NCBI RefSeq assembly: GCF_002884495.1
Contig: NZ_KZ614145.1
Coordinates: forward strand, 372,001-436,000
DNA length: 64,000 bases
From: Rummeliibacillus pycnus
Lineage (GTDB): Bacteria; Bacillota; Bacilli; Bacillales_A; Planococcaceae
Direction of reading: 5' to 3'
In this document: piece by piece, positions 12,965 to 35,721 of the stretch
Numbering within the stretch: the first letter of the stretch is position 1
Layout of the letters: each line of letters starts with the position of its first letter
The notes under the pieces: model-generated
Database searches by the model: none
The model's input: the letters and a program-made list of their open reading frames with translations, nothing else
Told to the model about the DNA's origin: nothing
Position numbers and translations under genes: made by a program

Positions 12965-13771
12965 ATGGGACGTGTAGAAGGTAAAATCGCATTAGTAACA
13001 GGTGCTGCATCAGGAATTGGGTTAGCATCAGCTCAATTATTAGCGAAAGAAGGCGCTAAAGTTGTTTTAGCTGACTTCAATATCGAAGGTGCAAAAAAAG
13101 AAGCAAAATCCCTACAAGAAAAGGGTTACGAAGTATTAGCAGTATTCCTTGATGCAGGTGACCAAGCTTCTATAAAGGCTGCTGTAGAGTTCACAGTAAA
13201 CACTTACGGTACAATAAATGTTCTTTATAATAATGTTGGTATTACCAACTTACGCAAAGACTTAGATGTCGTCAATATGGACTTAGATGAATGGGATCGT
13301 TTGATGAATGTCAACTTAAAATCGGTCCTACTTGGTGCTCGTTATGCCATACCTTATATGCAAAAAGCTGGTGGCGGTTCAATCATAAATACGACTTCAA
13401 TGGCTGCATTTGCTTCTGACTCAATTCGTTCAGCTTATGGTGCATCAAAAGCAGGGGTAGCACATTTAACAAAATATATTGCTACACAATATGGCAAAGA
13501 TAAAATTCGTTGTAATGCTATAGCACCTGGGTTAATCCTAACGCCAGCTGCAAAAAATAATTTACCTCAAAAAATGCTTGAAATTTTTACGAAATACAAC
13601 GCACTTCCATACAATGGCGAAGCAGAAGATATCGGTTATGCAGTTGTGTATTTAGCTTCTGATGAATCTAAATTTATGACAGGTCAAGTAATGCAAATTG
13701 AAGGTGGTCACTATATTGGTAACCCAACAATTGCAGACCTTGATGCATGGATGGCTGAACAACAAAAATAA
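12965..13771 (+). CDS. Short-chain dehydrogenase/reductase, substrate unknown
   Basis: 268 aa classical SDR, NAD(P)-dependent. TGAASGIG is the cofactor-binding TGxxxGxG near the N-terminus; Asp in VVLADFN at the end of beta2 favours NAD(H). NNVG replaces the usual NNAG. Ser-Tyr-Lys catalysis is seen in NTTSMAA and YGASKAG. Start behind AAAGGAGGAAA. It is monocistronic; its probable terminator lies more than 500 bp downstream because a ~490-bp repeat occupies the gap. Substrate cannot be told from sequence; FabG-like or alcohol dehydrogenase activities are possible. Confidence 0.85.
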   Translation: MGRVEGKIALVTGAASGIGLASAQLLAKEGAKVVLADFNIEGAKKEAKSLQEKGYEVLAVFLDAGDQASIKAAVEFTVNTYGTINVLYNNVGITNLRKDLDVVNMDLDEWDRLMNVNLKSVLLGARYAIPYMQKAGGGSIINTTSMAAFASDSIRSAYGASKAGVAHLTKYIATQYGKDKIRCNAIAPGLILTPAAKNNLPQKMLEIFTKYNALPYNGEAEDIGYAVVYLASDESKFMTGQVMQIEGGHYIGNPTIADLDAWMAEQQK

Positions 13772-13786
13772 ATCCTTGATATAAAT

Positions 13787-14274
13787 GAGTAAATTTCATA
13801 ATTCAAAGTTTTAATATAAAACACGAACATCTATTCAAGGAAGCTAATTCAATGTCCTGTGGGAAAGTGAGATAGGTGAGATCCCACAGTGAACGAAGTT
13901 AGGATATTGAAAAAGTAATAAATAGCAAGATTTTTATGATAAAAATCTTGTATTACAATCTTAATTGAAAGTGGAATTAGCGTAGACTCCTGTGGGAAAA
14001 CGGACTAGACGAGACCCCGCAGGAACGAGGAGGCTCGTCAGTTCGTCCACGGAAAGCGGAGCTAATTCCACTATCGTTCAACAGCGGATATATGCTATAA
14101 ATTTTTGTGTTACTCCCCTTTTTCAATGGCCTCAACGCTCACTTAGCACGAAAGCGCCATCTGGAGCGGATATTAAGCAAATAGTATATTACATATATAA
14201 TCCCAGTTATTGGATTGTATATGTTAGATAACATTCGCGTTTTTCGGCTAAAAAAGTATTTATGAAATTGAGTG
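13787..14274. mobile_element. ~490-bp non-coding element with terminal inverted repeats, copy A
   Basis: Bounded by GAGTAAATTTCATAA (13787-13801) and its inverted partner TTATGAAATTGAGT (14260-14273). It contains two palindromic modules: 13841 to about 13905, with core TGTGGGA/TCCCACA, and 13971-14071. The same layout recurs at 35153-35643 with near-equal length. No transposase or credible gene is inside: a 79-codon open frame at 13992 crosses the palindrome and lacks a ribosome-binding site. It is best described as a MITE-like or composite intergenic repeat. It lies between the SDR stop and a terminator, as if inserted there. Confidence 0.65.
13971..14071. repeat. 101-bp palindromic repeat module inside copy A
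   Basis: Ends are perfect inverted repeats GTGGAATTAGC (13971-13981) and GCTAATTCCAC (14061-14071). Inside, CCTGTGGG and CCCCGCAGG also pair. The module recurs from 35439, with a degenerate trace at 29247-29272. I recall related CCTGCGGG...CCCCGCAGG repeats as common in Bacillaceae and Planococcaceae genomes. Confidence 0.75.
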
Positions 14275-14291
14275 AAATAAGTAAAATAAAT

Positions 14292-14327
14292 AAACTCGTA
14301 TGGTGTTTAAAATCATACGGGTTTTTT
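14292..14327 (+). terminator. Intrinsic terminator, probably of the SDR transcript
   Basis: 11-bp stem AAACTCGTATG / CATACGGGTTT (one wobble), then a T run, 18 nt after the end of repeat copy A. Confidence 0.85.
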
Positions 14328-14481: not shown

Positions 14482-15150
14482 ATGGCTAAAAACTATGCTT
14501 CATATATTGATCATACTTTATTAAAACCAGAAGCAACAGAAGAACAAATTATAAAATTATGTGAAGAAGCTAAAGAATTTAATTTTGCTTCAGTTTGTGT
14601 TAACCCTGTATGGGTAAGTGTTGCTGCTGCTGAATTAAAAGAAGCAACATCAAAAGTTTGTACAGTAATCGGTTTCCCATTAGGGGCATCTACTAGTGCT
14701 ACAAAAGCGTTTGAAACAAAAGATGCAATTGCTAATGGTGCTGATGAAATTGATATGGTGATTAATATTGGTGCTTTAAAAGGTGGACAATATGATTTAG
14801 TTGAGAATGATATTAAAGCAGTAGTAGAAGCAGCAAACGGTACTTTAGTAAAAGTTATTATTGAAACTTGCTTGCTTTCAGAAGAAGAAAAAGTAAAAGC
14901 ATGTGAATTATCTGTTACAGCTGGAGCAGATTTTGTGAAAACTTCAACGGGTTTTTCAACAGGTGGAGCCACAGCAGAAGACGTAGCATTAATGCGTAAA
15001 ACTGTTGGATCTGAAATCGGAGTTAAGGCATCTGGCGGTGTCAGAAGCTTAGAAGATTTAGAAGGAATGGTAGCAGCAGGCGCAACTCGTATTGGTGCAA
15101 GTTCTGGTGTTAAAATTATGAAAGGCCAAAAATCAAAAACAGACTATTAA
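14482..15150 (+). CDS. deoC: Deoxyribose-phosphate aldolase DeoC
   Basis: 222 aa class I aldolase cleaving 2-deoxyribose 5-phosphate to glyceraldehyde 3-phosphate and acetaldehyde in deoxynucleoside catabolism. [10 protein letters not shown] at the N-terminus, Schiff-base lysine in [14 protein letters not shown] (about residue 153) and the second lysine in [11 protein letters not shown] behind AAAGGAG. A short hairpin (AGAG...TCTCT) lies in its leader. It functionally partners cdd, further along the window, in pyrimidine salvage. Confidence 0.96.
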
Positions 15151-35120: not shown

Positions 35121-35152
35121 ACTATATTTCATAATTCAAAATTCATATAAAT

Positions 35153-35643
35153 GAGTCTATTTCATAATTCAAAGATTTGATTTAAAACACGTACATTAAT
35201 CGGAAAATTGTTAAATGCCCATCTATTATCAATATTTACCTAATAAGTAGAAGATGGCAAGTCCTCGAAAATGCATTCGCATTTTCTTCGTGCGGTGCGA
35301 ATTCTAGGAAGCTAATTCCTATGTCCTGCGGGAAAGCGAGACAGGTGAGACCCCGCTGGTAGGTAAGCATGGCCACTGAACAAGTAAAATTAGCAAAATT
35401 TTTATGATGAAAATCTTGTATTACAATCTTAGTTGAAAGTGGAATTAGCGTAGACTCATGTGGGAAAACAGACTAGACGAGACCCCGCAGGAACGAGGAG
35501 GCTTACCACCCACGGAAAGCTCTATCTGATGCTGCATACGAAGAAGTAAAATTAGAAATGAAATACGATCCGACTTATTGAATGATGAATTTAGACAATA
35601 TCGTATTTTTTAATACGAGTAAATGCATTTGTGAAATTGACTC
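35153..35643. mobile_element. ~490-bp non-coding element with terminal inverted repeats, copy B
   Basis: Left end GAGTCTATTTCATAA (35153-35167), right end TTTGTGAAATTGACTC (35628-35643): inverted with two mismatches over about 15 bp. Modules in order: TTCATAATTCAAAG flank, a stretch with the palindrome GAAAATGC-ATTC-GCATTTTC absent from copy A, the first CCTGCGGG/CCCCGC unit (from about 35306), the 101-bp-type unit (from 35439, right arm decayed), then a unique tail. A partial duplicate of the left end lies at 35125-35140. No gene inside. It separates the hydratase gene from the CoA-transferase gene. Confidence 0.65.
35439..35525. repeat. Palindromic repeat module inside copy B (right arm decayed)
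   Basis: Starts GTGGAATTAGC as in copy A and matches it closely through CCCCGCAGGAACGAGGAGGC, then diverges; the closing GCTAATTCCAC is lost. Confidence 0.7.
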
Positions 35644-35721
35644 AAATATACACCTTATTTAGTCCGGTGTGAGTTGTAATTGAATACCAAAACAAAAAAA
35701 TGATGAGCGTAGGTGATAATG

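Follow-up and report, generated by a model that had tools for sequence, protein, structure and literature searches.

A probable IS1182-linked MITE, with a second MITE nested in it, between an SDR gene and deoC of Rummeliibacillus pycnus

How did a 488-bp stretch with inverted ends and no evident gene come to lie between an SDR-family oxidoreductase gene and deoC in Rummeliibacillus pycnus, and is it a mobile element or an inherited part of the locus? The window analysed here is a stretch of 64,000 nucleotides (G000:C1:372001-436000) from a genome of 3.85 Mb (G000). A sequence-only reading of it had proposed a non-autonomous element or recombining repeat cassette present in two copies, A and B. 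The evidence presented below leads us to regard copy A as a MITE, i.e. a non-autonomous DNA transposon lacking its own enzyme, with high confidence. We refer to its family as MITE-1, and to the second element found within it as MITE-2 (Table 1).

Table 1. Positions of the features of copies A and B and of the neighbouring genes in the window
Feature	Position	Strand	Remarks
SDR-family oxidoreductase gene, upstream	12965..13771	+	name from the sequence-only reading, not from a family search
Target-site duplication AAAT, copy A left	13783..13786	no strand	4-bp duplications in 12/22 pairs of the genome
Copy A, MITE-1 shell with nested MITE-2	13787..14274	+	488 bp
MITE-1 left terminal inverted repeat, GAGTAAATTTCATAA	13787..13801	+	same end in IS1182-like elements
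MITE-1 core repeat, left part, interrupted by MITE-2	13833..13899	+	
Nested MITE-2, 234 bp	13900..14133	+	ends TAGGATATTGAAAAAGT and (reverse complement) GAGGCCATTGAAAAAGG
MITE-1 core repeat, right part	14134..14167	+	
MITE-1 right terminal inverted repeat	14260..14274	-	2 mismatches to GARTCAATTTCATAA
Target-site duplication AAAT, copy A right	14275..14278	no strand	
Terminator-like hairpin, parted from the SDR stop by copy A	14292..14324	+	
deoC, downstream	14482..15150	+	name from the sequence-only reading
Target-site duplication AAAT, copy B left	35149..35152	no strand	
Copy B, a 491-bp MITE-1 in which the left part of MITE-2 is present	35153..35643	+	
MITE-2 left part in copy B, continuous with the shared core	35369..35520	+	right end missing
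Target-site duplication AAAT, copy B right	35644..35647	no strand	

Copy A and its empty site

The two ends lie in inverted orientation exactly where the sequence-only reading had placed them, with TTATGAAATTGAGT located at 14260-14273 of the window sequence. As that reading also held, there is no convincing gene inside: the single open reading frame of at least 60 aa listed for copy A is a 79-codon GTG frame at 13992-14231. Thus, copy A is short, has no transposase gene and is bounded by terminal inverted repeats, all of which are properties of a MITE.

Comparison of orthologous SDR-deoC loci, suggested by the same reading as a check, revealed empty sites in R. stabekisii and in two species of Viridibacillus. 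The SDR gene of R. stabekisii (L105; 83%) has a hairpin and deoC (85%) directly behind it, with 151 nt including the stop codon, versus 713 nt for the SDR-deoC interval of the window. The corresponding 151-nt stretch in another genome of the genus (G002, L210) is identical to that of L105, and because of this identity the two probably represent one species. In the two Viridibacillus species the SDR gene and deoC are also adjacent, with 272 and 273 nt between them; deoC was found to adjoin the SDR gene at L105, L109 and L110. A search for the MITE-1 end with 3 mismatches found none in the four SDR-deoC intervals (L105, L210 and the two from Viridibacillus). Because the hairpin comes directly after the stop in R. 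stabekisii and after the element in the window, the insertion point of copy A lies between the SDR stop codon (13769-13771) and the terminator of that gene, in line with the placement originally proposed. The two outcomes named beforehand as speaking against mobility, i.e. a lack of further copies or conservation at the same place in distant species, were both absent from our results.

Copies, ends and transposase partners of MITE-1

Comparison of copy A with the whole genome yielded 76 matching pieces. Its outer part (query positions 1-44, 47-103 and 364-485) recurs in the same order at about a dozen places in the genome, while the inner part (about 115-345) recurs elsewhere without the outer one; the segment 47-103 matches other MITE-1 copies at about 88-91%. 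The aligned copies have a common left end, GAGTCAATTTCATAATTCAAAG, and a common right end, TTTATGAAATTGA(T/C)TC. MITE-1 therefore comprises multiple dispersed copies with a shared inside.

Pairs of ends were counted if 80-700 bp separated them and neither end had more than 2 mismatches, in stretches of G000 chosen by similarity to copy A or by the end motif; the resulting 22 pairs are thus no census of the genome, and they include a few (e.g. L014, L034, L048) that are probably chance pairings. Exact 4-bp duplications flank 12 of these pairs (shuffled right flanks: mean 1.50, with 0 of 20,000 shuffles reaching 12), and in 17 pairs at least 3 of the 4 bases match, including 5 of the 10 pairs that lack an exact duplication. 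For the same 22 pairs, duplications of 2 and 3 bp were found once each and those of 5 to 10 bp never, i.e. the target-site duplication has a fixed length of 4 bp. The 12 pairs with exact duplications are 203-491 bp long and, because of this span, the near-equal length of copies A and B is a coincidence, which contradicts the proposal that constant length is a sign of the element. The modules missing from the shorter copies look by eye like deletions between short direct repeats. Among 17 joined sites, 14 lie outside and only 3 (L005, L007, L039) inside a mechanical frame of at least 90 codons.

The search for further copies in the genome and in Planococcaceae, also suggested by the sequence-only reading, did find them. 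The end 16-mer GARTCAATTTCATAAT occurs 7+9 times in G000 and is present in 44 of the 151 family genomes and in 11 of the 19 genera, with 0 matches to the reversed control pattern across all 151 genomes. The 15-mer GAGTCAATTTCATAA with up to 3 mismatches gave 221+223 matches vs 101+114 for its control; hence roughly half of the loose matches, taken by themselves, are noise. Short end pairs with different insides occur in other genera, and exact duplications flank 7 of 9 of them (mean in shuffles 2.44; 7 is reached in 19 of 20,000). In G003, a genome of the same genus, exact duplications flank 11 of 15 end pairs, and pairwise comparison of 14 aligned MITE-1 copies gave a median identity of 95% over about 388 bp. 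This homogeneous set of ~388-bp elements (L215-L221, L227-L234; 51 exact end 16-mers genome-wide) probably reflects a recent burst, for which no partner was detected.

An autonomous relative with the same ends, another of the suggested checks, was found outside the genus, as ~1.55-kb IS1182-like insertion sequences in other genera of the family. At L049, for instance, the ends are 1563 bp apart and enclose a 475-codon transposase (P0001) that matches the Pfam family DDE_Tnp_1. The NCBIfam model NF033551 (IS1182 family) is by far the best family for the P0001 group, with scores of 231.1-250.5 bits (E 3e-68 to 3e-74) for the five proteins tested, including 250.5 bits (E 3e-74) for P0001 itself; because these scores fall under the cut-off of 270, we use the label "IS1182-like". 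A relative 81% identical to P0001 is named "IS1182 family transposase" by NCBI. Relatives of P0001, counted at E 1e-30 or better, are present in 29 of the 151 family genomes and in 13 of the 19 genera. Of the 14 loci with near full-length transposases, 13 have the ends on both sides with at most 1 mismatch and the remaining one (L075) has one end only, while 9 of 18 IS-sized pairs are flanked by exact 4-bp duplications (shuffled mean 1.16; 0 of 20,000). The insertion sequences and most MITEs also have a common left/right asymmetry, with the left end followed by TTC and the right end by ATC or ATA, and their homology is limited to about 17-20 end bases. From these shared ends we infer that MITE-1 would be mobilised in trans by an IS1182-like DDE transposase, which would recognise the ends GA(G/A)TCAATTTCATAA and make 4-bp staggered cuts. 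Two insertion sequences of this kind are plasmid-borne, L213 in Sporosarcina psychrophila (NZ_CP146247.1) and L214 in Priestia megaterium (NZ_CP069398.1), with duplications AACT and ACGT, respectively (by eye). Plasmids could thus carry the MITE-1 partner between genera.

In the genome that contains the window, P0001 and the IS1182 family model each find nothing at E 0.001. Two candidate pairs for an autonomous copy in G000, 3097586/3100131 (2.5 kb, L033) and L037, enclose ordinary genes and no transposase. No transposase with MITE-1 ends was detected in the four genomes of the genus, with two weak matches in G003 (E 2.4e-5 and 4.1e-4); yet it is G003 that possesses the nearly uniform copies described above. 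The transposases may have come and gone by loss or horizontal transfer. The locus provides a clean example of MITEs that outlive their transposase, dated by the empty site. Across the family, the 16-mer is present in 16 of the 29 transposase-bearing genomes vs 28 of the 122 others (odds ratio 4.1, p 0.0012, hand tally), which is no proof of an association, because the insertion sequence's own ends can match the motif.

MITEs linked to IS1182 have been published as a kind (PMC3852290, PMC11578231). The ISMac2 MITE of Methanosarcina acetivorans (160 bp, 14 copies, inverted repeats of 26 and direct repeats of 4; Table 4 in PMC3852290) resembles MITE-1, as far as descriptions can be compared, in being short and gene-less, with ends tied to IS1182 and a 4-bp duplication, but its host is an archaeon, and nesting or a shared core is not reported in the part of that source available to us. 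MITEPye1 from Paracoccus yeei (1-3 chromosomal copies per genome), which is thought to be moved in trans, is likewise similar by description, i.e. gene-less, with ends like those of an IS1182-family element (ISPye18), direct repeats and RNA-like folding, but it has 18-bp ends and an unrelated host (PMC11578231). The repeats bcr1-bcr18 of the Bacillus cereus group are also dispersed, 100-400 bp long, non-coding and mobile-looking, and occur in Bacilli; the source ties them to a TTTAT motif and to a site-specific-like mechanism, and IS1182 is not mentioned in the accessible part of that text (PMC6542083). We found no description of the MITE-1 family in the open-access literature searched; MITE-1 is, within this scope, a new family of a known kind.

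The nested MITE-2 and copy B

Analysis of the inside of copy A reveals a further inverted repeat (13901-13915 / 14118-14132), which marks MITE-2. The alignment of whole copy A with L001, L010 and L002 breaks into pieces, and after removal of 13900-14133 the remainder aligns with the same three copies in one piece (47-251, 76-78%). The "different tail" of copy A is therefore, to judge from these alignments, a second MITE with unrelated ends inserted in the first. Free copies of MITE-2 are present in G000 (L185, L186, L188, L201), with ends close to GAGGCCACTGAAAAAGT; L201 is flanked by an 8-bp duplication, CTGTTAAA. For the nested MITE-2 no intact duplication of its own was found, the flanks sharing AACG only. 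Four transposases of the IS1182 group (L101-L104, in G001 and G003) have MITE-2 ends on both sides with at most 2 mismatches, and three of them have duplications of 8, 8 and 9 bp (none in L102; by eye). These four loci of the genus exceed the NF033551 cut-off of 270 (367-374 bits), and their transposase group shows about 21% identity to P0001 over 212 residues. Insertion sequences related to IS1182 can accordingly be divided into a TIR1 group, which has MITE-1 ends and 4-bp duplications and, unlike the curated family, scores 231-250 bits, under 270, and a TIR2 group, which has MITE-2 ends and 8-9-bp duplications.

In the order of events that we infer for the nest, MITE-2 (ends GAGGCCACTGAAAAAGT, 8-9-bp duplications) would have inserted into the palindromic core of MITE-1. 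Copy B has the same left MITE-1/MITE-2 junction as copy A, at the same distance, and matches positions 47-249 of copy A at 86% over 203 bases with unchanged length, while the right end of MITE-2 is missing. Because the left junction is shared, the nest was probably formed once and the composite then copied, and copy B would later have lost the right part of MITE-2, possibly when recombination took place within the core common to both elements. At L039, another MITE-2 is enclosed in a MITE-1 shell. The sequence-only reading was thus right that copy B holds a module absent from copy A and that copy A has a different tail. Of its "exchangeable insides", the differing insides stand, while their cause is different from an exchange, namely the nested MITE-2, together with small stretches gained or lost within a core repeat also found without these ends.

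The relative of the copy B locus in R. stabekisii has a different gene downstream, and the empty-site evidence concerns copy A. Immediately upstream of copy B, at 35121-35152, lies a partial second MITE-1 left end (TATTTCATAATTCAAAA..ATATAAA), as though the insertion site of copy B were the end of an older MITE-1 copy.

Rival readings and the palindromic core

Three other readings of copy A were considered, each of which accounts for some of its features. It could be a vertically inherited 3' untranslated RNA element of the SDR gene, i.e. a regulatory RNA or processing signal: it sits in a transcribed 3' region, folds better than its shuffles (z -6.7; for copy L010 z -3.9, with 1 of 100 shuffles as good) and has at 13886-14094 a weak match to the S. 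aureus RNA tsr24 (Rfam RF02577; 21.5 bits, E 0.01). This score is however well under the gathering cut-off of 50, no Rfam family matches within the window at gathering scores, and copies occur at many unrelated places with duplications; the element is missing from this site in R. stabekisii and both Viridibacillus species, which rules out a conserved element and makes this reading as a whole very improbable. The tsr24-aligned part of the window is the palindromic core, and the S. aureus RNA may contain the same Bacilli-wide repeat. We attach equally little weight to a palindromic repeat of the REP/BOX/bcr type, dispersed through the action of a Y1 (RAYT) transposase or of some site-specific system rather than as a DDE-type MITE. 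Such a repeat would agree with the palindromic and modular inside and with core repeats that occur without MITE-1 ends, but the outer ends, which DDE transposons share, form true inverted repeats and are flanked by duplications, and the only Y1_Tnp match in G000 is a decayed fragment (G000:C1:3363724-3363816, L206; a 55-aa frame with one stop, E 3e-4), so that no intact Y1 (TnpA-REP) transposase was found in the genome. This evidence counts against the reading for the shell and leaves the core aside.

Finally, the copies might have decayed one by one from IS1182 elements, each through an internal deletion that removed the transposase gene, which would explain the ends shared with the insertion sequences. 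The copies, however, share long internal sequence that is absent from the insertion sequences and therefore points to copying of a short form; L001, L004 and L010 are all 367 bp long and 96-97% identical to the L010 element used as query, and the 95% median identity of the G003 copies has the same bearing. This origin is accordingly just as doubtful as the other two, and a non-autonomous element fits the inverted ends, 4-bp duplications, scattered copies, lack of a transposase inside, empty site and partner insertion sequences alike, as the sequence-only reading had anticipated. As a MITE in the SDR transcript, copy A would form a strong hairpin that may change the stability of the messenger; we see no reason to invoke a host function to account for the element.

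The GC-rich palindromic core is alike in MITE-1 and MITE-2 (76-83% over 83-147 bases) and it is not restricted to them. The same core repeat lies inside a third MITE-like family of G003 (L222-L226), which has the ends CAGGCGTGTTGATT and, by eye, an exact 9-bp duplication around 4 of its 5 copies, and the core occurs without MITE-1 or MITE-2 ends on plasmids of Bacillus and Priestia. Among 250 genomes sampled from the class, at least 20, in 7 families, have core matches; this is a lower bound, as scoring was limited to 3 candidates in each genome. At 11 distant core loci we searched within 260 bp for flanking inverted repeats (14 bases, at most 2 mismatches) with a duplication of at least 4 and found 0 of 11 (swapped-flank control, under a stricter counting rule: 0 of 57); these loci were therefore rejected as further MITEs.

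For one core in three coats, the ordinary answers would be that one element inserted into another and the outer ends were then lost, or that cores recombined with each other. A more speculative and rather less likely view is that the core is a unit of its own, which three or more unrelated transposition systems (4-, 8- and 9-bp duplications) have picked up between their ends within one genus, with sub-modules that come and go at fixed points; the core would then be the persistent, favoured cargo (as a hairpin, RNA or landing site) and the ends interchangeable coats. With one core present in three MITE families, it would be possible to test if a core of this kind is a passenger, a target or useful cargo. 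Two sub-modules are present or absent at the same core points in several of these families. One of ~60 nt (CGAAAATGCATTCGCATTTTCTTCGTGCG...) lies at the same TCCT core point in both MITE families, as seen by comparison of L188, L191, L193, L195 and L201 with L185 and L186, and of L001 with L003 and L007, while the other (AACGCCACGTCCTGTGGCAACG...) is found at another core point in L189, L190, L194 and L196.
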